Program-made: the position numbers and the translations under genes
The notes under the pieces: generated by a model
Database searches by the model: none
What the model was told of the DNA's origin: nothing
Seen by the model: the letters and a program-made list of their open reading frames with translations, nothing else
Origin: Epinephelus fuscoguttatus
Lineage: Eukaryota > Chordata > Actinopteri > Perciformes > Serranidae
Direction of reading: 5' to 3'
Length of the DNA stretch: 64,000 nt
Assembly (NCBI RefSeq): GCF_011397635.1
Contig: NC_064767.1
Span: 16,035,537 to 16,099,536 of the forward strand
Shown here: one piece after another, positions 1,082 to 64,000 of the stretch
Numbering within the stretch: position 1 is the first letter of the stretch
How the letters are laid out: every line of letters begins with the position of its first letter

Positions 1082-4000
1082 CTGGAGAGGGAAAAATACA
1101 ATTTTATAAATAACTCTGCAACTGAGAGAAGTTCTAACAGTATATACACAGATATATTGCACAGACACATTTACTATGGATCAAATACCAAGTGGTAGTA
1201 GGGTGGCAATGGTATCAGTGGCAAAAATCCCAGAAAATATCATGGTTTCATGGTATATCCATTATTGTTCTCACTGTGCATGCTGCCACTTGGTGACATT
1301 ATCAGAGAACACAATGTCTGTTTCCATAGTTACGCGGATGACACGCAACTGTACATCTCTGCTGAACCAAATGATGCTGCAGCCATAGACTCCATTCCTA
1401 CCTGTCTTTTGGCAATTAATAAATGGATGAGCAATAATTTCTTAAAGTTAAATGGAGACGAAACTGAATTGCTGCTTGTTGGCCCTAAAACAAAAAGAGA
1501 AATGTTGCTTAATAATCTGGGGAAATTAACTCCCTGGATTAAATCCAGGGTTACAAGTCTTGGTGTGATCCTTGATTCAGCTCTAAGCTTCAAGTCCCAC
1601 ATTAACAAGGTGACGAAAACATAATTTTTCCACCTCAGAAACAAAGCCATGGTGCGACCATTTCTTAATGAAAAAGATGCAGAGAAATATATTCATGCCT
1701 TTATTTCAAGCCAAATTAACTACTGTAATGCACTTTTTACTGGCTGCCCAAAAAACACCACTGAGAGACTTCAGCTCAGCTATTAACCAGAACCACAGGA
1801 AGGTCCTCCTCTTTGTATACAAACCGTAAATAAGCTTGGACCGAGCTACATTGGTAAGTCCCTTGTTAACTATTTTCCTCCAAGAACACTGGGATCATCG
1901 GCTGCTGGTTTACTGGAGGTTCCAAGCAACAGCTGGAAGAAGATCGGGTATACAGCCTTTGTCAATTACACCCCAAAGCTATGGAACACACTACCTGTAG
2001 ATACTAGGGAAGCTAGCTCGCTAAATATTTTTTAAAATAAAGCTAAAAACTTATCTGTTCACTTTTGCCTTTAACTAGCTCTTTCTTTTTACACTTCATG
2101 CTGCTGCAACTCTTTTAAAACTAGCTTGATTTTACGATTTATAATTTTAGAACTCTAGAAATGATTTTATGAATCAGTTAATTCATGTTTTAAACTGTTT
2201 TAAATGTCCCTTTATGTTAAATTGCCTTATCTGGTTAATGTCCATTCTGTCTATTTTCATATGAAGCACTCAGTGCTTTAACTGCCCTTATTGTAAAGCA
2301 CTTTGTGCTGCATTTCTTGTATGAAAGGTGCTGTATAAATAAAGTTTATCATTATTATTATTCAGAAGTTTTTGTTGATGGGAGGTCTGACATGTCTCCA
2401 GAGTCGTCTTGGCCTCCTCCTTCTGTTTACGGAGAGTTTTTCTCATCTGGCTCAATACCAGATCAATGGCCCGACCTCTAGCTTGCTCATATGCCAGATC
2501 ATTCTCCATCAATTCTGCTCATGGACAAACCTCAGATTCTGCTGAATCCATGTCATGCTGTCGCACCATCTGGTAAAGTGTTGCGGGCTTTGCAGTGTTT
2601 TCAGCCGTTGCACAGTGCTGCTTTACGGCATCGTGCTCCCACCTAATCAAATAGAGTTCTTTTTGAAGGGCCTTTCTCTCACCCTTCGTCTGCTTAAGTT
2701 TGGCGAGCAGATTGTTGTTGGTGGAGGTTAGCTCCTCATGCTCTTGAGCCATCTTGGTCTGCAGCTGTCTGAGCTCCGACTGTTTGGCTTCCAATTCTTC
2801 TTGTGTGTCCTTGAGTGTTGTGCAGGTCTTCTCCAGCTGCAGTTTCAGAAATGTTATTTCTTTCTGATCTGCAGCCATCTTGCTCTTCACCTGTCTGAGT
2901 TCTGATTGCTGTTGTTCAAGTTCTTTATGAAGGGCCTCCTTTGCTCCCTTCACCTGCTCCAAATCAGCGCCCAGGTCCTTACTGATGGAAGTCTGCACCT
3001 CAAGATCTTTTTGTGTGGTCTTGAGCATTGTGCAGGTCTTCTCCAGCTGTGGTTTCAGATTCTGATCCTCAGCCATCTTGCTCCTTTCCTGTCTGAGCTC
3101 CGACAGCTGTTGTTCTAATTGTTTATGAAGGGCCTCCTTGCTCCCTTCACCTGCTCCAAGTCAGCGCGCAGGTCTTTATTGATGGAAGTCTGCACCTCAA
3201 GATTTTTTGGCGTCTGTCTGAACATTGCGCAGATCTTCCCCTTGGGCAATTTCTGCAACTTCTTATCGCTGGTTGGAGAGTCCATCTGGACTTGTCCATA
3301 GTCGGACTTGATGTTCTCCCGCTGTTCTTGGAGCTTGACCAGGAAATCGTCCAGCAGGTCCTCTTGGACGTCCGGGAGTACGCTCCCCTCTGTTGTACTT
3401 GGGGTGAGCCTGGCCCCACTGTCATTCAGTTCATGCTGCCACTGTTCCTCTAGTGAACTGAGATAAAAATTAATTTGAGGTTCCTTTTGTCTAGAATTGA
3501 ATATTATGAATTCCGTCCCTCTGTGTTATTTTTTATCGTTTGTCTTGGATGTGAGATCGAGCTCGATTTTGATCGACTACTATCACGGTGAGATGCTCTG
3601 AACCAAACTCTGAGCGTCTGATCTGATCTGAACAGCTCCTACTTCAATATTTTTGACCCTCTGAATGTGATGTCATTGTGATAAGAGAGTTCACAGTAGA
3701 TTCAGATATTACATATTACATATTACATATTAAGCACACAGGAGTCACATATGCAGGTTCGATGTTATACTGATGTAGTCCATTCTTTTGATTACTATAC
3801 AGTCACTGCTCTGCAATTATTTTGGTTTTCATTTAACTGTTTAAGTTATCTTTAAATCAAAAATGCCAAAAACAATCACTGGTTCCAGCATCTCAAATGT
3901 ATCTGTTGATTTTCTTCATATTATGTGACTGCTGTAGTTTATCGTCCTCACAGCTGAACCACTTTCACTTTTTCTGTCTTTCCACCCATTCAATTTCTTT

Positions 4001-7000
4001 ATTTCTTACATGGATGAGCAGCGACCAAACAATCATATGGCTGAGCGCTGCTGATTTGTTCTCAGTTTGGAGAATGATGTCTATCTGTGTAGTACAGTAC
4101 ATGTGTGTGTGTGTATGTGTCCACAGTAAGTGCTGCAGAGGTAATTAACTCTGCTAATTAATCCAGTGTGATAAAGTTGATAGAAAAATGTCGGACAATG
4201 CCTTCAGTTTTTTATTTTTTTTTCCAGCTGAGCCCTGTGGTAGCTTTGCCCAATTAGGATGACAAAATATTGATTTTATCTCTGGACATGTTTTTCTTGA
4301 CTTGACGTTCTGCAGCTCGGCCCGGCTGAGTTTAAAATTGCAGTATTTTTGATAACAGGGGTGTAAAACTTTTCACTTTAAGTCATGGTGATGATAATGT
4401 CAAAGGAACCTGATGTGTTGTGCTGAATGTTAGCTCTCTGCCGTCACTGATTTGCTCATTCTCAGCCTTTTATGTCACAATGACATTGTCCCATATTTTG
4501 CTATTATTACGAAAGAAGAAAACAGGTCAGTGAAGAGTATTCAAAAGTGACTCACCATAACCACAACAGGATTATGCTTTCATAATAAAATATGCCTTTG
4601 GTATAATGAGCATGACAATCAGAGCTCTGTGGAAACCTGCTTCAAAGACGGATTATCAGCATAAAATATCACAATTTCCTCCAGAACTATTTCCTGCAGA
4701 TTGCCTCCTGATAAAATATCTCACACTGAGAATATAAGCTACTAACAGTCATACAAAAAAAACCTGTTTGGATTCAGAAGGTGTAGCTGTCAGGTGTTGC
4801 AGTAAGTGGTGTGTCTTTAAAGTGTCCACTTTACCTATTGATTTTTTGAGCCGTGACAAGGCTAAACACTCCCCGCTGAATCTTCCATGATGCATTGTGC
4901 ACGTCAAAAGACAATTAACAGACTGTTGAAGCGCATGCTGGAACTGCTGGTCGATGTTGGTTGAACAGCAAAAAACCATCAATCTCAACGAGTCACTTAG
5001 TGGGAGATTTAGTTGTCAAAGTTTAGTGATGTAATTCCACTTCTTTTTAGTGCAATTTGTCTTTGTTTCAGGAGTTTGCAGCCATGAATGTGAATATTTG
5101 AAATCCTGACAGATACTATTACACAGTAATTCATATCAGGAAGAGATGTTACACCAGTCGCATATTCGTTTGACTTGTTTTTAGGAATTCTGCATTGACA
5201 AAATCTCAACATCAAGTTTTTTATCTTGTTTTGGAAACTTTTAATTCCCTAGCTGACAGATAAATACAAGAACAGTCTGTTGGCCCATGTTTTCACTGAC
5301 ATAAGACAGAGGCATGCTCGTGCTTTCACACATCCCCCATGTGGTTAAAGATTTTTCACTCGGGGTGTAAGTACGGACAGATGAAGAAAAGAAAATGAAT
5401 CATTCTATCTGCATACTGTGGTGCTGATATTTGAAGGTGAAACGTAACAGACTGTTCCTCCCTGTGCTGTTTGGCCTGGGGATGTCATCGTCACAACATG
5501 ACTAAAAGCAAATAAACAAATAAAAAATGCAAAAAGGGAGGGAGATGAGGAGAGAGACTACACCAAAGCAGAGAAGGGAGACGACGAGAGGTGACAGAGG
5601 AGGATGAAGAAAAGGTGTTTTACTTACGCAGCATGACCGAGACAGGCCGACAAATATCTGCTGCTACAGCTCGTTTGTATACCTTGTTTGCTGAATTCGG
5701 TGAAGAGGCTGAGGCTCGTGATGGACGGTCCGGTGAAGATGATGGTGTTTTTGCCCGAGATGTTCTGGCAGAGCTGCTTGGCCACAAGGCTGTGGAGCTG
5801 AGGCTTGTTCTTCAAGGTGGCCAGACTGTCTGTGCCCTCCTTCAGATGGACTGAGATCTGCAGCGTGGGCGGAAAAAAACACGTCGATAAAACAGACATA
5901 AAACTAACAAACTTTACTTCAATTTCAGTATGGTTTTATTGTCCTCTGGGACAGAAAATCCTGCAGCTGCTATTTAAGGCTTAACCCTCTGCAAGGCTGC
6001 AACTTTCACTCTTTAGCAGTGTGTGATGGAACAAACAGTAGTTTCATGATTTTGTTTTTCTTTATCTTACCAGCAGAGGCTAAAAAATTTCCCTTGAGGT
6101 GGCCCTAGGGAAGAGGCCAGGAGTGCCTTAAATCAAAATCTACCTGTATACATAAACTCATGAATGCATTTTCATAGCAATATGCCGATGTCATTTATGG
6201 GAAAAATGCCAGGTTGAAATATATCTGTGACTGGTTGCACAAAACACCTTAGGTTTTCTCCTTGAGTATGACACTTAAGACTTAATTTCTCTGTGGCTTA
6301 GGAACTTACACAGTTACACAGTTACACAGAATCCCCTAAAAAAATCCATTGTTAAGGAAAACTTATTTACTGGGTTGAAAGTGTGGTGATGAAAAGGCCT
6401 ACAAATACTTGACCCTTAAGGTCAAGTTAGAGGCAAAACCTGTTTACTAAAATTGAGCAACCCTGAATGGTCTCGCTCTGGAGAGAAGTCTTGGAGCAGA
6501 GTGACCTGGCAAACATTGTGATGGGGAAACATTGTGATGGGGAAACATTGTGATGGGGAAATAGATGTCGTTGACAGAACACCTTGTGGTAAAATGTCAA
6601 GTATTAAAGCTATAGTTGGTAATGCTGGAGAGCTAGCAAGATTTGAAAGCGGCACCTCCTCTAAGCTCCACCCCCTCCTCCCCCTCCCGTCAGTGCCGAC
6701 TCTCTTTTCTCAGCCTGTTTAGCGGGGCGAGCCGTTACAAGTAACACTGGAAGTGGTACTTTTGGCTGCATTTTCTCTGCCATTGGTCAGCAAACTCCTG
6801 CTAACTCTGTATTTCTGCTGAGGAGTGTGCTGAATATTTCCGGCAATGGTGACATGTGATGAGTGCACACAGGGAGGAGGGAGGGAGGGACAGAGGGGGG
6901 CTCGGGCAGGACGAGACATGAAGGCATCTGATTGGTTCTTTCCATTCGCACCGAATGGCAGGGATTGGTCAGAGTTTTTACAGGCCTGAAGCTGCCACAG

Positions 7001-39082: not shown

Positions 39083-42000
39083 TTTACCCTTCTCTTCTAG
39101 CGTTACAGCGCAAGTATGGAGTTTGTGCGGAGGTTTGAGCGTCAGTGCAGCTCGCAGGCCAGTGTGAAGAGACTGAGAGTGCATCCCTCATATACCAGCT
39201 TCCACAACAAATGGAACCTGCCTGTCTACTTTCAACTACGGTGCGTATTACCTCAATATGATCTATACTCTACATGCTACAGCCTATATATTACACTATG
39301 TTCAGTATACCCTCACGTTTCTTTCCAGAGCAAATTAGACATTTTGTAAACTGCAGGCTTCAGCCTTAATCATGTTGGAAGTGTGACTTCAAAATGCTAT
39401 ATATCCTTTGGAAAAGTAAGCAAATGTTCAGTACTCGTTTGTTGAAAATACAAAAACACACTTTTTTTCAGGGAATAGTTGGGAAGTTATCTGAGGAGAT
39501 CAATACCACTCTTATGTCTGTTTGTTTAATATGAAGCTGCAGCCAGGAGGGGGTTAGCTCAGCTCAACACGAAGACTGGAAACAGAGGGAGACAGCTAGC
39601 CTGACTGAAGTGTAAAAACAACAGTTTGTGGTGTTACGAGGGTTATGCATATTATTTCTTGGCTGGGAAAGGAAAAGCTGCCAGTATGATGTTTCAGAAG
39701 CACTTGTCAGATGGTTGGAAATCCCCCTCTCCCCCACACCTTTCCGATATTGGATCAGAGGAGGCTGTGTGTGACCATGTCTGTAACTTTCTGAAGCAAA
39801 CTTCCAACATTCACATGCATTTCACACCATGATCGGCCAGCTGGTGGATGTGAGACAGGAGCCAGGGTTTGAACTTCTCTCTCCAGCTCTCTTTTTTTGT
39901 TTGTTACACAACTATCTCTGTCACTTCATGTGAATAATGGAGAGACTGTCTGAAAATGTGCACTGTTATCCCCATATTTAAATAATTTAAAAAGAACCTT
40001 AACTGTCTATCACATAGTGATAGAAACTTGTCTTAGGTCAGGGGCTCACAGACAGCATCCCTCTGTAATGGTCGGCTTTTCACTCCACCTTTGAGTGTGG
40101 CCAATTAGTGCCTGAAGGTCAAGTCAGTTTTATTTATTTAGCACATTAAAAATAACAGAGGTTGACACACAGTGCTCTCCAGTTGAGGCAGATGGGTCGG
40201 GATTTGCCTCAATATAGATACACATGATTAAAGAACACCCAACACCCCAACAGGCAAAGATAGAGAACCAGCTGGACCAGCTGAAGTTTGTGGATGGACT
40301 TGAGAGGGAGACCAAAATGGAGCGAGTTACAGTAATCAATACAGGATGTAACCAAGATGTGAACAAGCATGGCGGTACTGTGCGGTGTGAAGGACGGGTG
40401 TAGACGGTTAATGTTGGGTAGATGGAAGTAGGCAGACCGAGTGACATTATTGATGTGAGATTGGAATGATAGAGTGCTGTCGAGGATGACACCCAGACTC
40501 TTAACCTGAGTGGAGGGGGAGACTGAGGAGTTGTCAGTATCAAGTGTGAAACTGTTGATTTTTGCTGAGGTGGATTTGATGCCAATGAGAAGTAACTCAG
40601 TTTTGTCACTGTTTAATTTGAAGAAGTTGCCGGAGAACCAGGATTTGATTTCCTGAAGGCAGTCAGAGAGGGAGGAGGGCAGGAGGATGGACAGATAGAG
40701 CAGGGTGTCATCAGCATAGGATGTTAAATTTATGGAAGATGAAGCCGAGACAGAAGGCAAGAAAAAAATAGGAAGTTTGGAGAAATGGAATAAAACCATC
40801 AACAGATTAAAAGGCAGAAAAAGACAGAAATATGTTAAGAGGGGACTTTACAAAAGCCATGGGGCAGCCGCAGACTGAACTAAACGCAAGCAAAAAAGTT
40901 GCGTCTTTAAATCTGATTTAAAATTATCCACGATGGAGCAGGTCTTAATGTAGAACAGGAGGCTATTCCAGAGTCTGGGAGCAGAAACAGCTGAGTCAGC
41001 TGTGGTTTTGAGGGACTGAGAGGAGATGTTAGGATGACCTGAGTGGCCTGAGGGTAGCATGCAGAATTAGCAGGTTGGTAATGTATTGTGAAGCTAATTC
41101 AAGTAGTAAGATTTTAAAATCAGTTCTGTATTTGATTGGTAAGGTGGCGTGAAAAGCAGATACATTATAGTTTACCTTTAAAGTCACTGTAGCTTTTCAC
41201 TATATGAGAGTGGTATTGACAGTCTCATCTAGCTCTTGGAGAGAAAGCATAATACTGTTCCTTCAAGTTAATGGATATTTTGGTTTAGAATGAAACACAT
41301 ACACACACACATACACAACCCTAGGTTAGATTATTTTATGTGCATGCAGTGGATAATAGGTGTGTTTTAATCTTTTGAATCTGGACCTGTCAGCTTGCAT
41401 AAACACAGACGTCGGAGAAGTTTGAATTTCTGCACAGCGTGTATTTTGAAGAATTGACTGGTCTCGTTTTAAGGACTCAAGAGACAAGCTTTGATTAAAA
41501 TTGCAGCCTGCCAGCGTTTTTTAGAGGAAAAAAAGACAAGTTGGCAGGTGTCCACGAGCTGAACAAAGCCCGTTTTTACAGGAATGTAGAAAATTGCTTG
41601 TGGGTGAGAGTTTCACACAGAATGATGACAAGAAGCAAAACTGAGGATGTGTGTCAGCATATTACTAAACACAGCCCATAAACATGACACTGGGCCTTGA
41701 CTGTATGGTCATTGATTTGTGTGAAAAAGTAGAGAGGTTGTTTGCCAGTCTTCCTCCTGCCCCTACAAACAGGCACACACTCTAATGATCAGGGCATGTG
41801 ACCTCATTTCACAACTCAGATCTGCACAGTTCAGCTTTTCTGGAAAGTCCATAATTTCCGAGGCACACTTTGTGTTTCACGTCATGAGTGTGTGCAAATC
41901 AGAGCTGATGCAACACATAAGCTGATAACACATTGATTGTTTTGTCCCTCCTTGTTTTTCCAGGTACAAGGAAATAGCCGGAAGTCTGGAGAACGCCATC

Positions 42001-49828: not shown

Positions 49829-52800
49829 TTACAGTGTAGGATTGGTGATCTTGCCGAGCATGAGGATGGCGTTAGAATTTCCCTCTATGACAGAGAAGAA
49901 GAACGGACGGTTGATGAACAGTTTCAGAGGGACACCTGCTTCCTGGATCTTGTCCTGAGGTTCTGCTCCTTCCTCGGACATCTCAAACGTCACCCTGCTG
50001 ACCGCCTGAGAGGACAAAGAGAGATCAGTTAAAGACGCGCGCACACACACAGTAAGTGTTTTCCACCACAAGATGGCCACTCATGTAGTTCACCTTATCT
50101 ATAGTGAAGGGTTTGATGTTGCTGAGTTGGCTGAACTCAGCCAGGGAGCCCAACAGCTTGGCCTCAATTTCTGGATCCATGTGGGTCAGCAGGTCGCGCA
50201 TATCAGTCACAGCGGACATGGAGAACTTTGGGAGGGACAGCTCCAACAGACTGGACACATGGACACAAGAGGAAACAGATTTTAAGATGACAAGTGTTTG
50301 AACTAAAATGGGACTCTTTCTCCCTTTAAAATCTATAGGGATGACATGTTAATGATTGACTGATAGACAGTTACTAGCTCAGGTATTTAACTTAGAAGCC
50401 AATAAAATGGTGCATTCTGTAAGACCAGGAGCTCTGAATGCAGAATACTTGGAGCAGAATACTTCTATGCTGTGGTATTGCTACTTTAACTTAAAGGTCC
50501 AGTGTTTAGGGTTTAGGGGCATCTATTGGCAGAAACTGGATATCCTCCTGAGACTTTGTGTCCTAATATTGGGACATCACATTTTGGGTTTACTTGACCT
50601 TATACTTCATTCTACTTAACTTAGACCTGTTGTCCTTGTTCATGGGCACTTTTTCGTGCCATCTAGTGGTAGTAAGAGCACAATACACTAATCCATGTAA
50701 AAACAAGATGGCAGCCATCTCTGCCAAGTCAGTCTGCAGCCAATCCCAACACAAAAGTGGACACAGTCCAAAACCTGATCACTTTTTATGTTTGAAACTT
50801 GTTTATTTATGATTAATAATGTTTGTAGTCTGATATGGCAACACATTTGACCAATTTTAGCAACAGTAACAAGATAAGATGCTGTTAATTAGGAAGTACT
50901 CATTTGAAGACATCAGGACTTTATTACCGCCTCATTTGAGGACACTGGGACTAAATTATCGTTGACAGTGTTTAGATTTTTATACTCATCGGGTCCTACT
51001 GATCCCAAATAGCTAGGAGAAATTAAATATGCATACCAAACAACAGTTCAGGTCTCAGGAGGATATGATATTTATAACTATGTTTTTATTAGTTTATGAT
51101 CACCTGAAAATAAGAATTGTTGTGTTTACATCACTGTAGAACGAGTCTATAACATACAGAGCGGGTCCTCTTCTAAGACGTCCGCCATGTTGTTCTACAG
51201 TGGCTCAAAACTGAGAAGTCAAACACTGGCTCTAGACAGAACCATCTGCATCTTCACGTTGGCCACCGTAGTTCTCCTGCACACTTAGCACATCGGAGAA
51301 GTTTTAGCTCTGCAACCTTCTACACACCAGGGGTCTCATTTATAAACATTGCGCACACACAAAACGAGGCCTGAAAAGTTGTGATCTACAAAAACAGATT
51401 TAATGGGAGAAACTTTGATCAATTCTTACGATCATTTTGGAGATAGGAAATTGGTGATGCAGATGGTGAGGTGAAGGCCTGATTGTAGGAATTGTCTAAT
51501 ATTTTTTGGGGCATGCCATTTTTGGAGTTTGTCTGCTCTATATTGTTAGTATGCACTGTTTTACAAATGAGACCCCAGACCTTTAAATAAAAGTTCTCAG
51601 TACTTCTGCCACTGTAGGATATTGAGCATGGAGACATGGTGATACTACTCTAGGTCTGGTTATAAAAAAGCACTCACCCTTCCTGGAGGCTCTGGTACCA
51701 GTCGGACATGACGTCGGTGAGCAGCTTAGACTCAATGTCATGGAGGTCGGCCCCTTCATGAGGCAGGACCAGCAACATGTAGGACCGTTTGCTCAGAGAC
51801 AGCTTCACAACTGTGCACCGCCGCACCTTCATGGTAACAACAGAAAAATATTGTGGATGAATCCTTACCCAAGTCCGTTTCATATTTTCACATATAAACA
51901 AATGAGCCAATGAATTAAAAAGATGCACTAAGATTTACCTTATCATTTAGGTAGTGGTACCGACCCGTGTGGGTCATCAGAGGAGCCATCACTGTGGTTG
52001 TTTCATCCACATGAAACTCCTGCAAGGAGGTCTTCTCTGGCTGAAAAGCTGTTCTCCAGTTGCCTAAACAGACAATCAAAGACCAGTCAGGTACTGCAAG
52101 ATGGTGCAGTAGTTGACAGAACTATAAACGTTGTTATCTGTAGGATTTCAGTTTGATGTATCAGCAACAACACAAATCTAAGTGTGTTTGACTGGCACAT
52201 GTAAATACTCTGTGGTAAATGTACTTAGAATTTATTGCAAATCTGATCATGGTCATTAGAAGTGGTACCAGGCTTGATTTAATATCATCATCCTGGCATT
52301 GTGATAAAGATTAAAGTCTTGTGGTGTCTGTTCACACTCCTATAATACAGGTAGTTAAATTATGAATGTTAATCTGTGTATTCTGTATAATCATTTTAAC
52401 AGAGGTCTAAGCAAAACAGAGGACGAGCCAGACCTTGGAAGTTGAAGGAAGTAGCAAACAGAAGGTCGCTGCTGGAGTTCAGATCTTTGAAAATGCCCTT
52501 CACCCTCCCGTCTGATGTCTTCTCCACGAAGCTGTTCACCAGCTGCTCCGCCTCCTCAGGTTTGGAGAAATCCACACCGCGGATGAATGATGTGTCAGAG
52601 AAGTCCTGCGTGCCTTGAATAAAGTCCTCGGACAATTGAGCGTCCTGGCGAGTGAAGGTCCAGACCTGGGTGGTGATTTCATCTTTGGGTCCGTCATCCA
52701 CCAGAGAGTTGATGCCCTGCAGGGTCTTGAGAACCTTGTGTCCATCCACCAAGGACACACAGTCCTCTCGGTCGGTTTCGCTGCTCAGGCCCAGTAGAAG

Positions 52801-53391
52801 CTGAAAGGAAAGGTGGGAATTGAGAAAGATTAACGTCTTTGAGTAAACGTACAGCACCTGATAATCAGATAGATGGTAAGGATCGTACCCAAAATAGTAA
52901 AGGATCACCAAGTACTGCTTGCCTAAAACCCTTTTGGGCCATCTCTACAATGAGAACAAATCAAAAACAAAGACCTGGAATGAGCTTGCTGTCTTCTTGG
53001 AGGCCCCCAGGTAGAAGGTGACGAGGGATCCGTAGGTGTTGACCGGAGAGAGGAGAGTGTTGGTGCTGCGCTGCTTGCTGCTGACAGCCTGGTACATCCT
53101 CAGGCCCAGAGAGTTCAACAGCTCTGCCAGAACCGCCGTCCTCTCTGTGATGTTCTGCCTCTGTGTATCCACTTTCAATGGGTCCCTGCTGTCTGGTGTC
53201 AGGACTTCAATATCAAGCAGGGACACAGGAAGTGTCTCCAGGGGCTTTGACGCCTGGGTCTGCAGGGTCTCACAGGTGACATTCTCGGCAGCGAACAGGT
53301 GGAAGGGGTGCACATAGACACGGTTGGCTTGGGTTCCTGAGAGGTAGCAGCAGAGTAGGAGGGCTACCACAGGCACGCGCAGTATCTGCAT
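49829..53391 (-). CDS. agt: AGT, angiotensinogen (complete coding region)
   Basis: Secreted non-inhibitory serpin (SERPINA8) and precursor of angiotensins; renin releases angiotensin I from its N-terminus. Six coding exons: 52975-53391, 52434-52800, 51939-52063, 51678-51826, 50094-50250, 49829-50005; 463 codons plus TAA, all AG/GT with matching phases. Residues 1-22 are a signal peptide (LLLCCYLSGTQA). Residues 23-32 are NRVYVHPFHL, angiotensin I with Asn1 and Val5. Cys40 (mature Cys18) and Cys153, in EDCVSLVDGHKVL, match the two cysteines of the human redox-sensitive disulphide. NVT at 37-39 is a glycosylation site. The C-terminus NRPFFFSVIEGNSNAILMLG ..NP is serpin-typical. Human AGT has four coding exons, so two extra introns are inferred. 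An acceptor at 53430/53431 (TCTCTCTGCAG) shows that the 5' UTR is split. Confidence 0.96.
50491..51329. mobile_element. TTAA-type non-autonomous element in AGT intron 4, right end diverged
   Basis: Starts TTAAAGGTCCAGTGTTTAGG GTTTAGGGGCATCTATTGG, the same family end as at 19079. It contains the block shared with 33298-33541. The expected inverted right end is only weakly visible near 51300-51329 (TGCAACCTTCTACACACCAG), so that boundary is approximate. Confidence 0.55.
51330..51576. mobile_element. Short MITE in AGT intron 4
   Basis: Ends GGGGTCTCATTTATAAA and, reverse complemented from the right, GGGGTCTCATTTGTAAA. 247 bp, non-coding, immediately next to the preceding element. Confidence 0.75.
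53323..53325 (-). other. agt: AGT signal peptide / angiotensin I junction
   Basis: The Asn1 codon of angiotensin I follows Ala22, with the decapeptide NRVYVHPFHL next and Phe-Ala after it. The renin-type cut would fall after Leu32 and the converting-enzyme cut after Phe30. His at position 9 differs from the Asn9 form known in some salmonids. Confidence 0.8.
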
Positions 53392-54691
53392 TTTACCTTT
53401 TGTTGGTATTCACCTTAAAACAATTCTTTCTGCAGAGAGAGACAGATATTTTTAGTTTTACAACAAATTACCTGGAGTTTATCAACCTATCAGCTGGCTC
53501 TTGAATCCTTGGAAAGTTAGTATAGGGTGGCCTGTGGAGCTACATCACTATTAGCGTGGCTTTCGTCAGAAATCTGGCTGGATCTGGTTTTCCGTCTGTA
53601 ACAGGATTGGCTGGCAGGGACATTGGACATAGAGCGCCATGTCAGTGATGGATTGATGGCTCTTTGTGTTGCCTTTTTTCTGCTGGTCAGTGAATGAGAG
53701 CAGGCATTACCCTCTGCAACAGAGGTCGCATAGATAATGAAGACGCATCTACGTGTGTCTGTGTGCAAACTTGTTTGTGTTCACAAACTAAAATAAGATG
53801 GATGATTCATTTGAATTTTGTTTGTTGTTTATTTGAATCCTGGTAAAGCAGCCTTCAGATGGAGGATGCAAACTGAGTGTGCTCAGGCAGGCCCCAGACC
53901 AAATTGTCCCAATACATTAAGACAAAACAGTTCACCTTGGACACCGTGATTGGAAAATATGATACTTGTGACAAATTTGGCAGCATTTATGTTGTAATAC
54001 CTGCACAAATAAACACATCATCTAGAATAAATGACAAGACATAAGTTGCAAAACAAACTTTTACACACCTATAGTATATAATTAAAAATAATGGACAAGT
54101 TCATTGACGTGTTTCACATTTTCTCAAGTTCCCAAACACTTTTTATGCATTGACCTAGATGTCTGTAGAGGAGAGTAACTTTGGTGAGCGCTCTTATGCA
54201 AAAATAGGACTTTATCCTTTGAGTTGAACGTGCAGAAAATGTGGACTGATGGACTCTTGGAAGATGTGAGCAAACACTAGATTTTCCTCTATTTGGAAAT
54301 GTACCACAGGACATGGCCTTGGTACCTTGTCAATAAAAGCAGTGTTCTTATACACAACCAACCCACCTATGTACCCAGTGACACAATGGAGGAGGTCAAA
54401 AAACCTGCCTGATTCATTGTCACTGATGTTTTCTGTCAAGATCCAGATTTCTAACTCATTGGATGTGATTCATTATAACCTTGTCTTTGAGTGGAAACTT
54501 AGTTGTACTGTTTATTTTTATAAAGTATTTAACCCTCACATTAAATGATACATTTCAAACATTAAGTTTTGGCTTTGAATAAGATTATAGATTTGTCACG
54601 AGTTATAGGACTCCAAAAGTTTCCCCTCGTCTCTTTAGAGTTTCTACATTCACTGCACAAGCAATTGATTAGAGATAAAGTTTGCTCTTAC

Positions 54692-57934: not shown

Positions 57935-57941
57935 TATTTAA
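57935..57941 (+). promoter_or_regulatory. TATA-like box of the CUB/SMB gene
   Basis: TATTTAA, 41 bp upstream of the ATG at 57976, which would leave a very short 5' UTR of about 5-15 nt. The box suggests a tightly tissue-specific promoter; inferred from position only. Confidence 0.4.
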
Positions 57942-57975: not shown

Positions 57976-60900
57976 ATGAGCAGATTCACCATGTGGACTC
58001 TTTTAGTTCTTTGCAGCGTGATCGTCTTACATGGAGTGCAAGGTATTGCCCACTAATTTCTTAATATGTTTGTTTCTTTGGTTTTCAATTGGGTTTTAAC
58101 ATGATTTTTTGCTGTTGTTACTAATGCTGTCTCTGGTCTTTAAGTTGGCACACTCTGACCTTTTGTCCTTTGTGTTTTACTCATGATACACCAGGTGTTG
58201 ATCGCCTTGGAACAACTAAGGCAATGTATCGACCAACAGGACCAGCAGGTACGGTGTAAATAATATAACTGTGGTTTAGCTTTAACTGTGCTGCCATATC
58301 CAAAATGTTGCTGGCATGAATTGTCCCTTTGAAGACCCACTGGGGCATTTTTTGACTAACTATATATGTTTCTTGTATGATGGCATTCCTTTTGTTTTCA
58401 TCATATTCAATTTGTTACTATTTTATTCTTTATGAGTCATTTTTAATTTCATGATCCTGTGTTTCTTCTGGTGTAGATCCTAACTGTGTCAGTCGGCTTC
58501 TTGGCAGGACGGGGGCTCTTGCCAGCAAAAACTATCCAAATCCGTACCCTAACTCAAAAACCTGCATTTGGTATATCACACCGAGCAGTGGAATCGTGGA
58601 GCTGAGCTTCCGTGCTCTATCGTAAGCATATGCTCTGCATATACAGAAGGGCCTATGATTACTAACTACTGTTACTGCATCGTCTGTAGCTTTAAATCCA
58701 AACTTCTGTTCTTCTTTTGTCCCTATTATAGCATTGAATATCACCCGACTTGTGATTATGATGCCCTTTTCATCTTTGACGGCCCTTATACCAGTAGCAG
58801 GCTCTTGGGCAAACTGTGTGGCACAAACAGTACCACCTTCCGCTCTACCGGGCCTGCTATGACTTTGCAGTTCACGACTGATAGAGATACTAGCTCCTCG
58901 GGATTTTATGCTGAATTCAGGGCTAAGGGTAAGTCACAATGCTTATGACTTAGATGTTTATGGAATTTCTGAAATGTCTCCATTGTAATTAAATCTAGGA
59001 TTTTATGTGTAGCATTAAGTCTCATTACAGCCATGCAGAGAGCGACCTAAACTGTGTTTTCAGTTGTGGTGAATGGTTTTGTGTGTGTTTGTCTCTGCAG
59101 GTGGAACTTCCTGCAGAAACAGCTGTGGCTACTGGCTCGGAAACTGCTCATGCTCCTCAAGCTGTGAACAAAGAGGGAACTGTTGTCCAAACTTCAAAGG
59201 TAAGCAGTGGTTGAAAGAAGCTAAGTACATTTACTCAAATACTCTACTTGCATACAGTTTCAGGGAACTTTAATTCAGTATTTTGATTCTGTGCTACTTT
59301 TTACTTCGTGGTGCCTCTAATCTAATGTTGAGTCGTCAGCAGTTTGCACCAGCTTTTCACGTGGTTTCATTTAAATATCTGTTATCTATAAATATAGTAT
59401 TCATTATTTAGGCCCATAGACATGAAGGTTAGGTTAACTGGTGTACGCATGAACGGTTGTCTGTCTCTAGGCCTTTTTACACAGACAGCTCTATAGAGCC
59501 GCAATGTAGGCCCCTCTGTATGCCGGCTTTGCATTATTAGGCCCGTTTCCACTGAAGAAATTCCTGGTACTATTTGGGGGGCAGGAACTTTACAGAAACG
59601 TCCTCTGCTCGGCCCTCTCAATTGCCGTGTCTCCACTGAGAGGGCAGAGTAGGAGGAAGTTACCGGGCTCTGGATGTGACGTAATCGTTGCATGACCCTT
59701 TTGACCGGGGCGACGCGGCAAAGAAACAAACAATTTGCAACTTGCTTTTCTTTTTACGACTCCTCGTCTGCTGAGTTGTAAAAATGGCGGCTATTTTGTC
59801 GCTTTCTGTTGACGTCACATCCCACCTTGAGTATAGTTCCGGAACGCTGTCCTTCGGGGGTGGTTCCTGCGGCGGAGACACGCACCAACGGCCCCGACCC
59901 CGTAAAATTACACCGAAGTTCCTGCGGTGGAAACGGGCCTATTGTTACACAGAAAACAAACAACGGCGGCATCACACCGCCCTAGTGTGTCATTCCAAAT
60001 AGCATGCCCGCACAAGGAAAAGACGCGTGGCAGACATGACATGTAACACAACAGCATCGGACAGTAGTGTGACATATAACAGACACATAAGCAGTGCGTC
60101 ATCAAACAATAACAATGGTATAACACGGCAATAACAATCATTTACCGTCCCTGTTAAATAGCTGCTGATCTCGTCCTTGGCTTGGGGAGTAAGGAGCTCC
60201 CAGACCTCATTGTTTTCCCAATTTGTGGACATTTTCTTCTATGAGTTAGCCGCTAACTGCTATCACCTACTTTTTAAATCTTCTTAAATCTATCTGTGGT
60301 GGGTGGCACACATAACACATAGTCAAAATGTCACGTCTGTGCCGCCCATGATCCCATCCTGCTGGCTGTCCCTCTTATACAGACATTGCGGTACTGCTAA
60401 CCTCTTTGAATAAAGTAGCTCACCTGATTTTTCCCTCTGACGATCAGTAAAGGCTATTTATCTATCTATCTATCTAATAATTCTGATATATCAACTAATC
60501 TAATCTCTCTGTTTTACAGATTACTGTGCATTCTCACCCACATACACAACTACACCATCAGTATCATGTAAGATGCAGTTTTATTCTCACTCAGTAAAAG
60601 TTTCATTTAAGAAATACATTTTTTTGGGGAGGCAATCTTGCTGTAACCTAAACATTGTCTCTCAGATCAGCCCTCATGTCGTTACAACTGCGGCGGGCAC
60701 CTGGGAAGCTGTTCCTGCACAAGCTCTTGTCAATACTATGGCAACTGTTGCCATGACTACAGCTGTAAGTGCCAAGTCTAACAAATCAACAGTGTTAACA
60801 ACCTCTGCAGTCCTGTCTTGCTTTGAGCAATCAGTCTGTCAATTCCAGTGTAATGCTGTGCCGAGAATGAAACACACCTTTGTCCCTTTTTTTGTTTTTG

Positions 60901-63900
60901 TTTAAGTCTACAAAATAAACAGTAGATGTATTATAATTTATTACGCAGTAACACTAGGAATAAACTTTATTTTTCTCTCTCTGTCTTGTAGATTACTGCC
61001 CAGCCACAACTGAAGGACCCATCACACGTAAAAACCCTTTAAGCCTGAATTTACCTTGAAGTACTTGATATGCAACAATCCCTGTGTGCTGTAATGTCAG
61101 CGTCAACCTGTGTTTCACAGCTCGGCCCTCGTGTTATAACAACTGTGGCGGGCACATGGGAAGCTGCTCTTGCCGGAGCTCTTGTCAATCCTATGGCAAC
61201 TGTTGCTATGACTACTACAGTAAGTGCCAAGTCTAACAAATCAATAGCATTAACAGGTTCTGCATCCCTCTCTCGCTGAAGGAATGAGTCTGTCAGATTC
61301 CTCAGTGCTCACACGGACATGAAGGGATACAATGTTTTTGTGTGCAGAAAACACAGCAGGAGGAGGTGTATCATGATGTTTGCCTCACACAGCAAGAAGA
61401 GGTGTAAAAGACTGTAATCACTTTATTCTCTTCTCTTTGTCATGTAGCTACCTGCCTGCCAACGACTACTGGTATACCTATCAGACCAACAAGCTCAGGT
61501 GTGAAACCTCTCAACAAGCTACACGGCAAACTGTAGAACATATTATCAGTCACTGAAATGTTATAATGCTCTCTCTAAGATGGGTACTCCTGTCGGAACA
61601 ACTGTGGCAGCTACCTAGCAGCCTGCTCCTGCGTAAGCACTTGCCGATCCCAAGGAAACTGTTGTTATGACTTCTACTGTAAGTATCACATCCCTCAAAG
61701 CTCAGCAGAGAAGCTGCACACCATGACATGAACAAATATTATCCCTCCACCACAGAAATTGACTTTACAGAGACAAAATCTTCTCTTCTACTTAATATTA
61801 TATATTTCCTGTTGAAACAGGATGCTGGGGCAGGTACTCAAGACATGTATAGAACTCAAATGAATAGAACAGCCTCGATAGCAACGTCAATCTTGTCTAA
61901 CACGCTCGTCATAATTGTTATTACTCCACATTGGTTCTGGTGCACCGCTTGACAAGGCATTAGTCCCAACTGTGGCACTAATTGCCTAATCAAGTCCTCT
62001 TGAAAAAATTAGTCATCTTCAACATTTGTGGTGTTGTAGTTTCAGAATGATGAAGACAGTTTAAGAAAAATTAAATACCAAATAGGACGTAGGCTCTACA
62101 GGATGTTTTTCAGGCATTCTCTTATCTAAAATGAATGGCTTAAAAAATATTGCTGTAAATGGGGACGGCACGGTGATACAGTAGTTCACATTGTCGCCTC
62201 ACAGCAAGAGGGTGGGGGCTTTGTGTGGAGTTTGCATATTATCCCTGTGTCAGCGTTTTTCTCCAGGTACTCCGGCTTCCTCCCACAGTCCAAAGACAAG
62301 AAGGTTAGGTGAACTTGGAAGTCTAAATTGTCCGTAGGTGTGAATGTGAGTGTGAATGGTTGTCTGTCTCTATGTGTCAGCCCTGTGATAGTCTGGTGAC
62401 CTGTCCAGGGTGTATCCTGCCTCTCTCCCAATGTCAGCTGGGACAGACTCCAGCCCCAGCCCCTGTTTGCAGTTACAGAATAAACAACAGGTGCATGTAC
62501 CAGTAATAACAGGTGTAAAATAATTTCATAATTTTATTCTCTCTTGCAGCTCACTGCTACACGACAATTCCAGCCACCACAGGTCAGAAAAACCCTCAGA
62601 AATCTGGAGTATATGGGAATAAACCAACATCGAATAATTTATTGTGCTCACTGAAATGTCTTCCTACTCTCCCGTGTCTCTCAGCTCAGCCCTCATGTCG
62701 CTACAACTGCGGCAGGCACATGGGAAGCTGCTCCTGCGCAAGCTCTTGTCAATGGAATGGCAACTGTTGTTATGACTACTACTGTAAGTAACCAGTAATT
62801 CAAAGCACGGCGCATTTTGATCACCAATCATCATCAGTCATGTTTGTATGTGCGTTCTGTCTCTTTTTTTTGGCAAATTAACTTAGTATAGGGATTTCGG
62901 AGAGAGAGTCTGCAATCTTAACTTCCCAAATGATGAGATTTTCATGCATTCTCTTATCTCAAATGGCTTAAATGATATTGCATATAGCTGCTGTAAATGC
63001 GGTAAAAAATCACATGGGGGAACATGCCCCCAGACTCCCCATGTTTGGGCTGACCACCAAATGTTTAAAACATCTGGCTCCGCCCCTGTTCGCAGTTGCA
63101 GAATAAACAACAGGTGCATGTATCAGTAACAAAAGGTGTAAAATAATGTCATAATTTTATTCTCCTCTCTTGCAGCTCAATGCTTCACGACCACAGGTGC
63201 TCCACCCACCACAGGTAAGAAAAACCCTCAGAAATCTGGAGTATATGGGAATAAACCATCATCGAATAATTTATTCTGCTCACTGAAATGTCTTCCTATT
63301 CTCCCGTGTCTCTCAGCTCAGCCCTCATGTCGTTACAACTGCGGCAGGCACATGGGAAGCTGCTCCTGCGCAAGCTCTTGTCAATGGAATGGCAACTGTT
63401 GTTATGACTACTACTGTAAGTAACCTGTGCTCTGAAGCATGGCACATTTTGATCACCGTTTCCACCAAGAAGTCAGACTGAAACCCATGTTGTCTTGGGT
63501 TTTCTTTTTCAAACAGCCTACTGCTATTACACAATGACATTTTTACGACATGATTATCGTGGGCAAAAGAGTTCACAATAACAATATCATCGCAATATCT
63601 CTAGAATTTTTTTTTTTTTAAAAAAAGCTCTATCAATCAAATTTGCATGTGCGTTCTGTCTCTTTTTTTGGCAAATTAACTTAGTATAGGGATTCGGAGA
63701 GAGAGTCTGCAATCTTAACTTCCCAAATGATGAGATTTTCATGCATTCTCTTATCTCAAATGGCTTAAATGATATTGCATATAGCTGCTGTAAATGTGGT
63801 AAAAAATCACATGGGGGAACATGCCCCCAGACTCCCCATGTTTGGGCTGACCACCAAATGTTTAAAACATCTGGCTCCGCCCCTGTTCGCAGTTGCAGAA

Positions 63901-64000
63901 TAAACAACAAGTGCATGTATCAGTAATAACACGTGTAACAATGTCATAATTTTATTCTCCTCTCTTGCAGCTCAATGCTTCACGACCACAGATGCTCCAC
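57976..64000 (+). CDS. Secreted CUB plus tandem somatomedin-B-like domain protein (partial; 3' end off the right edge)
   Basis: Not recognised as a named gene. Exons: 57976-58042 (signal peptide WTLLVLCSVIVLHGVQG), 58195-58248, 58477-58621 and 58732-58928 (CUB, about residues 44-153, with CDYDALFIFDG as the usual calcium-site region). Then six 99-nt exons (59101-59199, 60666-60764, 61121-61219, 61580-61678, 62685-62783, 63317-63415) alternate with linker exons (60520-60567, 60992-61027, 61448-61498, 62550-62582, 63176-63214, 63971 onward). From exon 4 on, every junction is phase 1. Each 99-nt exon gives seven cysteines spaced C-x3-C-x6-C-x-C-x3-C-x5-CC, and the next exon adds the eighth (YYC, TTC, SQC), matching the somatomedin B pattern. 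At least 431 codons. Linkers are Thr/Pro-rich, probably O-glycosylated. Teleost DMBT1/GP2-like mucosal proteins combine CUB and such repeats with a ZP domain; a ZP C-terminus here is a guess. Confidence 0.85.
58477..58928 (+). CDS. CUB domain exons of the CUB/SMB gene
   Basis: Two exons (58477-58621 and 58732-58928) encode the CUB fold: DPNCVSRLLGRTGALASKNY, PNPYPNSKTCIWYI, EYHPTCDYDALFIFDGPYTS, LCGTNSTTFRSTGPAMTLQF and SSGFYAEFRA. Four cysteines are in the canonical CUB positions, and the YP-NPYPNS start and GFYAEF end are typical. NST is a possible N-glycosylation site. Confidence 0.88.
59539..59940. mobile_element. MITE in intron 5 of the CUB/SMB gene
   Basis: The ends AGGCCCGTTTCCACTG and, reverse complemented from the right, AGGCCCGTTTCCACCG are inverted, flanked by ATT on both sides, fitting a 3-bp target duplication as in Harbinger-type MITEs. 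402 bp, non-coding. Confidence 0.75.
59941..60519. other. Intron 5 remainder with a (TATC)n run
   Basis: Non-coding sequence with a short (TATC) repeat near 60455-60475. Minus-strand frames here have no similarity. Confidence 0.5.
62163..62465 (+). mobile_element. tRNA-derived SINE inside intron 11 of the CUB/SMB gene
   Basis: GGACGGCACGGTGATACAGT AGTTCACATTGTCGCCTCAC head (B box partly lost), ACTCCGGCTTCCTCCCACAG body, and CTGTCCAGGGTGTATCCTGC tail. It interrupts intron sequence that is uninterrupted in the paralogous introns 13 and 15. Confidence 0.8.
62583..64000 (+). repeat. Recent tandem duplication of an SMB exon + linker exon unit
   Basis: 62583-63214 (intron 12, SMB exon 5, intron 13, linker exon) is repeated as 63215-64000 onward. 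The intron 12/14 copies share about 100 bp with a handful of differences, the SMB exons differ at one base, and introns 13/15 share about 300 bp. The second copy carries roughly 165 extra bp (about 63455-63640). The linker exons differ at one base (GGT Gly in 14, GAT Asp in 16). Confidence 0.85.

Follow-up and report, generated by a model that had tools for sequence, protein, structure and literature searches.

The question raised by this locus is what kind of protein is encoded by a gene that stands beside angiotensinogen (AGT) in the fish Epinephelus fuscoguttatus and carries an expanding array of somatomedin-B (SMB) modules. It lies at the right end of the window, by which we mean the whole stretch of 64,000 nucleotides analysed (NC_064767.1, here C16:16035537-16099536), to which sequence on the right was added from the same 1.047-Gb genome, 40 kb and then 100 kb. 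The original prediction, made from the letters of the window, described a secreted protein of mucosal or egg-coat type for which no name was recognised. To judge from its sequence, the locus appears to hold a fish gene in full, encoding a secreted and probably filament-forming protein. We assign the CUB-SMB(x7)-CUB-ZP product, with a probability of about 0.68, to the CUZD1/DMBT1 group; it would assemble through its ZP domain into filaments at a mucosal or epithelial surface, displaying the SMB modules as a multivalent arm.

The predicted gene is on the (+) strand and extends from 57976 to ext 69329, its ending base being base 5329 (5.3 kb) beyond the window edge; "ext" coordinates continue the window numbering and equal the position in the added sequence, L009, plus 64000. 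All splicing in the model is predicted from the DNA. It has 25 exons and 884 amino acids, with a frame open to the final stop and no internal stop, and GT-AG borders in 24 of 24 predicted introns. The domain order is signal peptide, CUB, seven SMB, CUB, ZP and a charged tail of 15 residues. The signal peptide, the CUB domain and six modules thus stand where they had been proposed, and the 431-residue product proposed with them is accounted for by exons 1-15 (421 aa) and by that part of exon 16 which falls within the window (10 residues). Its count of at least six modules was right for the window, and the total is corrected to seven, the seventh lying beyond the edge. Extension to the right for the C-terminus, which had been advised with a ZP domain among the options, yielded module 7, a second CUB and a ZP domain. 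There are two start codon candidates, 57976 and 57991 (five codons later), of which the latter is the likelier start from its better context (CACCATGT, read by eye). The features are as follows, all on the + strand; exons are from the predicted model, with further evidence in brackets.

57935..57941, +: candidate TATA-like TATTTAA 5' of exon 1 (read by eye)
57976..58042, +: exon 1, start codon(s) 57976/57991 and signal peptide (hydropathy)
58195..58248, +: exon 2, short linker, phase 1-1
58477-58621, +: exon 3, part of CUB domain 1 (Pfam)
58732-58928, +: exon 4, part of CUB domain 1 (Pfam)
58477..58928, +: exons 3 and 4 together, giving CUB domain 1, protein residues 44-151
59101..59199, +: exon 5, SMB module 1, Cys 1-7 (Pfam)
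60520..60567, +: exon 6, Cys 8 of module 1 and Thr/Pro/Ser linker
60666..60764, +: exon 7, SMB module 2 (Pfam, module search of genome)
60992..61027, +: exon 8, Cys 8 and linker
61121..61219, +: exon 9, SMB module 3 (Pfam, module search of genome)
61448..61498, +: exon 10, Cys 8 and linker
61580..61678, +: exon 11, SMB module 4 (Pfam, module search of genome)
62550..62582, +: exon 12, Cys 8 and linker
62685..62783, +: exon 13, SMB module 5 (Pfam, module search of genome)
63176..63214, +: exon 14, Cys 8 and linker
63317..63415, +: exon 15, SMB module 6, 98/99 nt as in exon 13 (alignment)
63517..63534, +: relic of an exon-18-type linker exon in intron 15 (alignment, exact match)
63971..64000, +: exon 16, cut by the window edge, ends at L009:9
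L009:138-236, +: exon 17, SMB module 7 (Pfam)
L009:337-372, +: exon 18
L009:458-965, +: exons 19-20, CUB 2 (Pfam)
L009:2113-5145, +: exons 21-24, ZP (Pfam)
L009:5283-5329, +: exon 25 with stop

Pfam applied to the spliced 884-residue model gave three families above cut-off, CUB (E 7.3e-50, two stretches), Somatomedin_B (E 7.1e-24, seven stretches) and ZP-C (E 7.5e-28); DUF7592 and BppL_N scored under their cut-offs and were disregarded. Among solved structures in the Protein Data Bank the CUB domains match cubilin and PCPE-1, and ENPP2 and ENPP3 were also matched by the whole-protein search. The whole ZP module (query residues 598-869) matches uromodulin (4wrn, E 2.7e-17), and its ZP-N part (599-703) matches choriogenin H (8bqu, E 2.2e-5). 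The region has both ZP-N and ZP-C, with a basic cleavage-type site (RCRR) and then a hydrophobic patch (LVLGPIQL) near the C-terminus, both read by eye. The strongest 19-residue hydropathy of the protein, 1.85, starts at residue 6 and belongs to the signal peptide; past residue 600 the highest value is only 0.85, and we therefore find no membrane segment. The protein has five N-glycosylation sequons, and there is one RGD at residue 756 (exon 23, L009:2721-2881), inside the ZP-C domain.

The assignment of the modules to the SMB type, already made in the original prediction, agrees with Pfam PF01033, for which the protein scores 84.3 bits and single modules 24.8 and 26.9, compared with a curated cut-off of 23.1. 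Each module is built from an exon pair, a 99-nt exon with Cys 1-7 followed by a 33-51-nt exon with Cys 8 and a Thr/Pro/Ser linker. As had been proposed, the gain of such a pair leaves the reading frame intact; all 14 module and linker exons begin in phase 1, and their lengths are multiples of three. All eight cysteines are kept in 7 of 7 modules, with the spacing C-x3-C-x6-C-x-C-x3-C-x5-CC-x6-C, and they are among the 14 positions that are invariant across the six distinct module sequences. An exact search for this cysteine pattern gave seven sites, all in the region of the gene, with none elsewhere on either strand of 104 kb, and none of 300 dinucleotide-preserving shuffles of that region contained it. 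Compared with solved structures, the module profile is closest to the SMB domain of SUSD2 (PDB 2cqw), which aligns ungapped with E 4.1e-5; ENPP3, EndoU and ENPP1 follow. The gap between Cys 2 and Cys 3 is 3-4 residues shorter than in eight other SMB domains of the genome, all of which (8/8) have Cys 8 within the same open frame; eight loci were scanned for this comparison, and L006 did not fit the pattern used. By sequence, the modules are thus classed as short-loop SMB, nearest to SUSD2, with which they share the eight-cysteine spacing. SUSD2 has a single SMB copy in a membrane protein of different architecture. A genome-wide Pfam search for SMB gave 16 other exons; these seven modules were not among its matches, their single exons presumably scoring too low there. 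With one module as query, the ten candidates scored included seven matches within this gene and a weak one on C19 (E 0.79); after the locus was read the latter was rejected as a second copy and taken as a chance match. The sequence there (C19:26923942) consists of tandemly repeated open frames with a period of about 0.78 kb that encode a Cys-containing protein. Exons 13, 15 and 17 end in T before the GT, and read-through into the intron gives Cys-Lys-stop, so that a retained intron would end the protein right after a replacement eighth cysteine.

That the array is expanding, as had been suggested, is evident at its right end, where it has grown recently by tandem duplication. Exons 13, 15 and 17 (modules 5-7) agree with one another at 97-98 of 99 nt; exons 7 and 9 are identical at 81/99 nt and each is identical to exons 13/15/17 at 81-87/99, exon 11 has 69-73/99 in common with exons 7-17, and exon 5 has 52-57/99 in common with all other module exons. 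Self-comparison revealed a pair of 728-bp blocks with 91% identity and 16 gap openings, one copy ending at 63534, together with 376- and 402-bp block pairs at 92% and 85% identity, while intron lengths in the duplicated blocks differ (392, 555 and 100). The relic in intron 15 comprises an acceptor and the first 18 nt of the exon-18-type linker (63517-63534); an exact 24-nt match occurs only at 63511 and 64331 (exon 18) within 104 kb, and of the 14 introns between exon 5 and exon 19 this is the only one with such a relic. It is what would be left by an unequal exchange with its breakpoint in that exon. Since near-identical duplicated modules, block pairs and a relic exon are all present, the number of modules is likely changeable, as judged from the one haplotype seen. 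Synonymous divergence (dS) exceeds non-synonymous divergence (dN) in 19 of 21 pairs of module exons, exons 7/15 being nearly equal; the exceptions are exons 13/17, with no synonymous difference, and exons 5/7, with no estimate. In the other pairs with exon 5, dS is at least 1.4, near saturation, and the dN/dS comparison is uninformative on recent positive selection.

The architecture invites comparison with two known proteins that are described in PMC3100851 and PMC3654630 as secreted epithelial and glandular proteins, DMBT1 and CUZD1, both with two CUBs and a C-terminal ZP. In the fish gene, too, a pair of CUB domains precedes a single ZP at the C-terminus. Human CUZD1 is given as 607 aa and nine exons, with two CUBs and one ZP (PMC3654630), whereas the fish gene has 884 aa, 25 exons, seven SMB modules between the CUBs and no membrane segment. 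With DMBT1 (gp340, hensin, ebnerin) the fish gene has in common the order CUB-inserted module-CUB-ZP, Ser/Thr/Pro-rich linkers, secretion and a changing repeat number. The SRCR14 domain of DMBT1 stands between its CUBs, according to PMC3100851, and by analogy the SMB array occupies this slot. DMBT1 is, however, defined by SRCR, and Pfam finds no SRCR domain in the 884 residues, where modules of about 36 residues stand instead; on its sequence the fish gene is therefore not filed as DMBT1. We would place it as a new variant within the CUZD1/DMBT1 group, with an array that is absent from CUZD1 and with putative common descent. Among the papers listed for SMB together with ZP, CUB, DMBT1 or fish, no description of such a gene was recognised.

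The chromosomal position may fit this placement. On the left, the neighbour on the (-) strand is AGT, as had been stated (match to PDB 8h55, E 5.5e-36). To the right follow zinc-finger exons in (-) orientation (ext 75198-78184) and, in (+) orientation, two homeodomain open frames (107986-108717 and 116098-116871), which we provisionally take to be IKZF5, HMX3 and HMX2. The human gene list in PMC10340279 reads DMBT1-PSTK-IKZF5-ACADSB-HMX3-HMX2, and that for cattle in PMC4831767 has a similar order with a few genes interspersed; CUZD1 is in neither list. DMBT1 is said in PMC3654630 to sit directly upstream of CUZD1, which in human is at 10q26.13. With these provisional names, the right flank resembles the DMBT1/CUZD1 region of these lists, and because of this resemblance in order the gene sits where a relative of DMBT1/CUZD1 could be expected. 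The original prediction, in which no name was recognised, is changed here in that the CUB-CUB-ZP core and right neighbours of this kind give the gene a likely context. Of the two options it left open, insertion beside AGT or fish-specific synteny, insertion is the less likely and disfavoured, since what lies to the right has the look of a block of DMBT1/CUZD1 type; the window apparently crosses a junction at which an AGT-side block meets such a block.

Several observations weigh against membership in the CUZD1/DMBT1 group as set out above. The zinc-finger open frame finds its best solved matches in a designed zinc finger, ZNF568, PRDM9 and CTCF, with Ikaros and Helios lower, and because the latter two score below other zinc fingers the label IKZF5 is tentative. 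Of the open frames that were read from the gene to the HMX pair, none was recognisable as ACADSB or PSTK, which the mammalian lists place near IKZF5, no completed search having been aimed at the ACADSB domain. A search of the genome with the ZP tail gave a single other relative, a weak one (C24, 34%, 15 candidates scored), and AlphaFold gave no confident fold for one 32-residue module exon lacking Cys 8 (mean pLDDT 57). More generally, having mobile domains in common is not in itself proof of common descent, and PMC3927612 warns of such "epaktologs".

ZP and SRCR sequences are also found elsewhere in the genome, with at least 75 matches for ZP exons and at least 152 for SRCR exons. Among the matches listed, SRCR exons are most numerous on C1 and C18, and C16 has one, at 38.5 Mb (150 of 348 candidates scored). 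Large arrays of SRCR exons lie at C1:40.65-40.995 Mb, C18:39.9-40.44 Mb, C5:1.72-1.76 Mb and C20:34.36-34.48 Mb. On C1 the exons at 40.87-40.89 and 40.99 Mb have near-equal scores and are about 0.6 kb apart, and among the matches listed ZP exons adjoin the groups at 40.65, 40.70 and 40.77 Mb, with none by the two large arrays. The SRCR arrays constitute a separate and larger case of module expansion in the same genome. Kinship with the C1 SRCR-ZP genes near 40.65 Mb was considered and rejected, as the ZP exons of one 10-kb piece, read by eye, are of a different type without the LVLGPIQL tail.

Of the alternatives, the least improbable, though still unlikely, is that the gene encodes an egg-envelope (chorion) protein, in which ZP builds the coat and the CUB/SMB arm takes part in egg-coat or sperm interactions. 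The ZP domain itself, choriogenin H among the solved matches and the abundance of ZP exons in the genome are all compatible with this; many ZP exons are expected from the chorion families of fish. Choriogenins carry a P/Q-rich repeat, however, and none was seen when the protein was read by eye. The match to uromodulin is better than that to choriogenin, though not like for like, the choriogenin match being to ZP-N only, and both the CUB-CUB-ZP order and the flank resemble CUZD1 and DMBT1, which are described as epithelial and glandular proteins. Of the two settings originally offered, we accordingly favour the epithelial or mucosal one and hold the egg coat to be less likely.

A function in adhesion or protease control as in vitronectin, with SMB binding PAI-1, uPAR or similar and RGD binding integrins, appears considerably less probable still. 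The modules are SMB by sequence, of the same Pfam domain as those of vitronectin, ENPP and EndoU, and the protein has an RGD; the SMB domain of vitronectin binds PAI-1 and uPAR. But the fish modules are of the short-loop kind nearest to SUSD2 and not to vitronectin, and where vitronectin has a DEL stretch between Cys 4 and Cys 5 they have SSS, TSS, RSS, VST or ASS. The RGD of vitronectin adjoins its SMB domain, whereas here it is inside ZP-C. An assembly artefact, by which modules 5-7 would be spurious copies of one or two genuine modules, is improbable to a similar degree. It would account for exons 13, 15 and 17 differing by only 1-2 of 99 nt, and one assembled haplotype was seen; against it, the introns of the duplicated blocks have diverged (91%, 92% and 85%, with the 16 gap openings in the 728-bp pair), their lengths are unequal, the relic exon is in one block only, and modules 1-4 are clearly distinct.

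The mechanism that we propose is that cleavage at the basic site ahead of the hydrophobic tail patch would release the patch, upon which the ZP domain could polymerise the protein into filaments. A role of ZP domains in oligomerisation has been suggested (PMC3100851). The two CUBs and a stalk of seven disulfide-rich SMB modules would then stand out from the filament as an arm for multivalent binding, with the Thr/Pro linkers as possible O-glycosylation sites, and the array may thereby fill the multivalent role of the SRCR repeats of DMBT1. The setting would be a mucosal or epithelial surface of the fish, which is favoured because of the CUZD1/DMBT1 kinship and because transcript lists from fish name CUZD1-like genes. 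CUZD1-like transcripts are recorded in salmon gill, in scaled skin of Gymnocypris (in a table also with mucin-5AC), in a list for killifish that includes muc2 and muc5ac and in one for American eel, in each case by name only and not shown to be this gene.

With regard to the surroundings, AGT (window 52399-53409, -) and the CUB-SMB-ZP gene (57976, +) are divergent, with about 4.6 kb between the start codons. Open frames left of AGT, which are without Pfam match, we take to be COG2, and one further left is presumably PGBD5, Pfam finding a piggyBac-type transposase domain there. Open frames with YADD-type reverse-transcriptase motifs at 1202-1621 (+) and 40212-40847 (-) are probably LINE fragments. 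At 2522-3525 (-) two long open frames are coiled-coil-like and contain internal repeats; the first of them has a weak Pfam match to CENPU, below cut-off. Scans of the window for tRNA and Rfam families found none, and a bacterial-type promoter scan gave, as expected, no more than chance.

In human DMBT1, which acts in mucosal defence, the number of SRCR repeats changes at a very high rate, reported in PMC4851238 as 0.7-2.7% per generation for one copy-number region. In the fish a similar position and the same CUB-CUB-ZP frame are combined with an unrelated module which is likewise recently expanding. As a tentative proposal, the DMBT1/CUZD1 locus of this fish lineage may have swapped its SRCR repeats for a fast-expanding array of short SMB modules, possibly copy-variable between individuals like the SRCR repeats of human DMBT1, which would make it a convergent hypermutable arm for mucosal recognition with an unrelated fold. 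If this is true, the near-identical modules would be usable in binding assays, and the locus would provide a natural test of whether selection has acted on multivalency itself or on SRCR chemistry.

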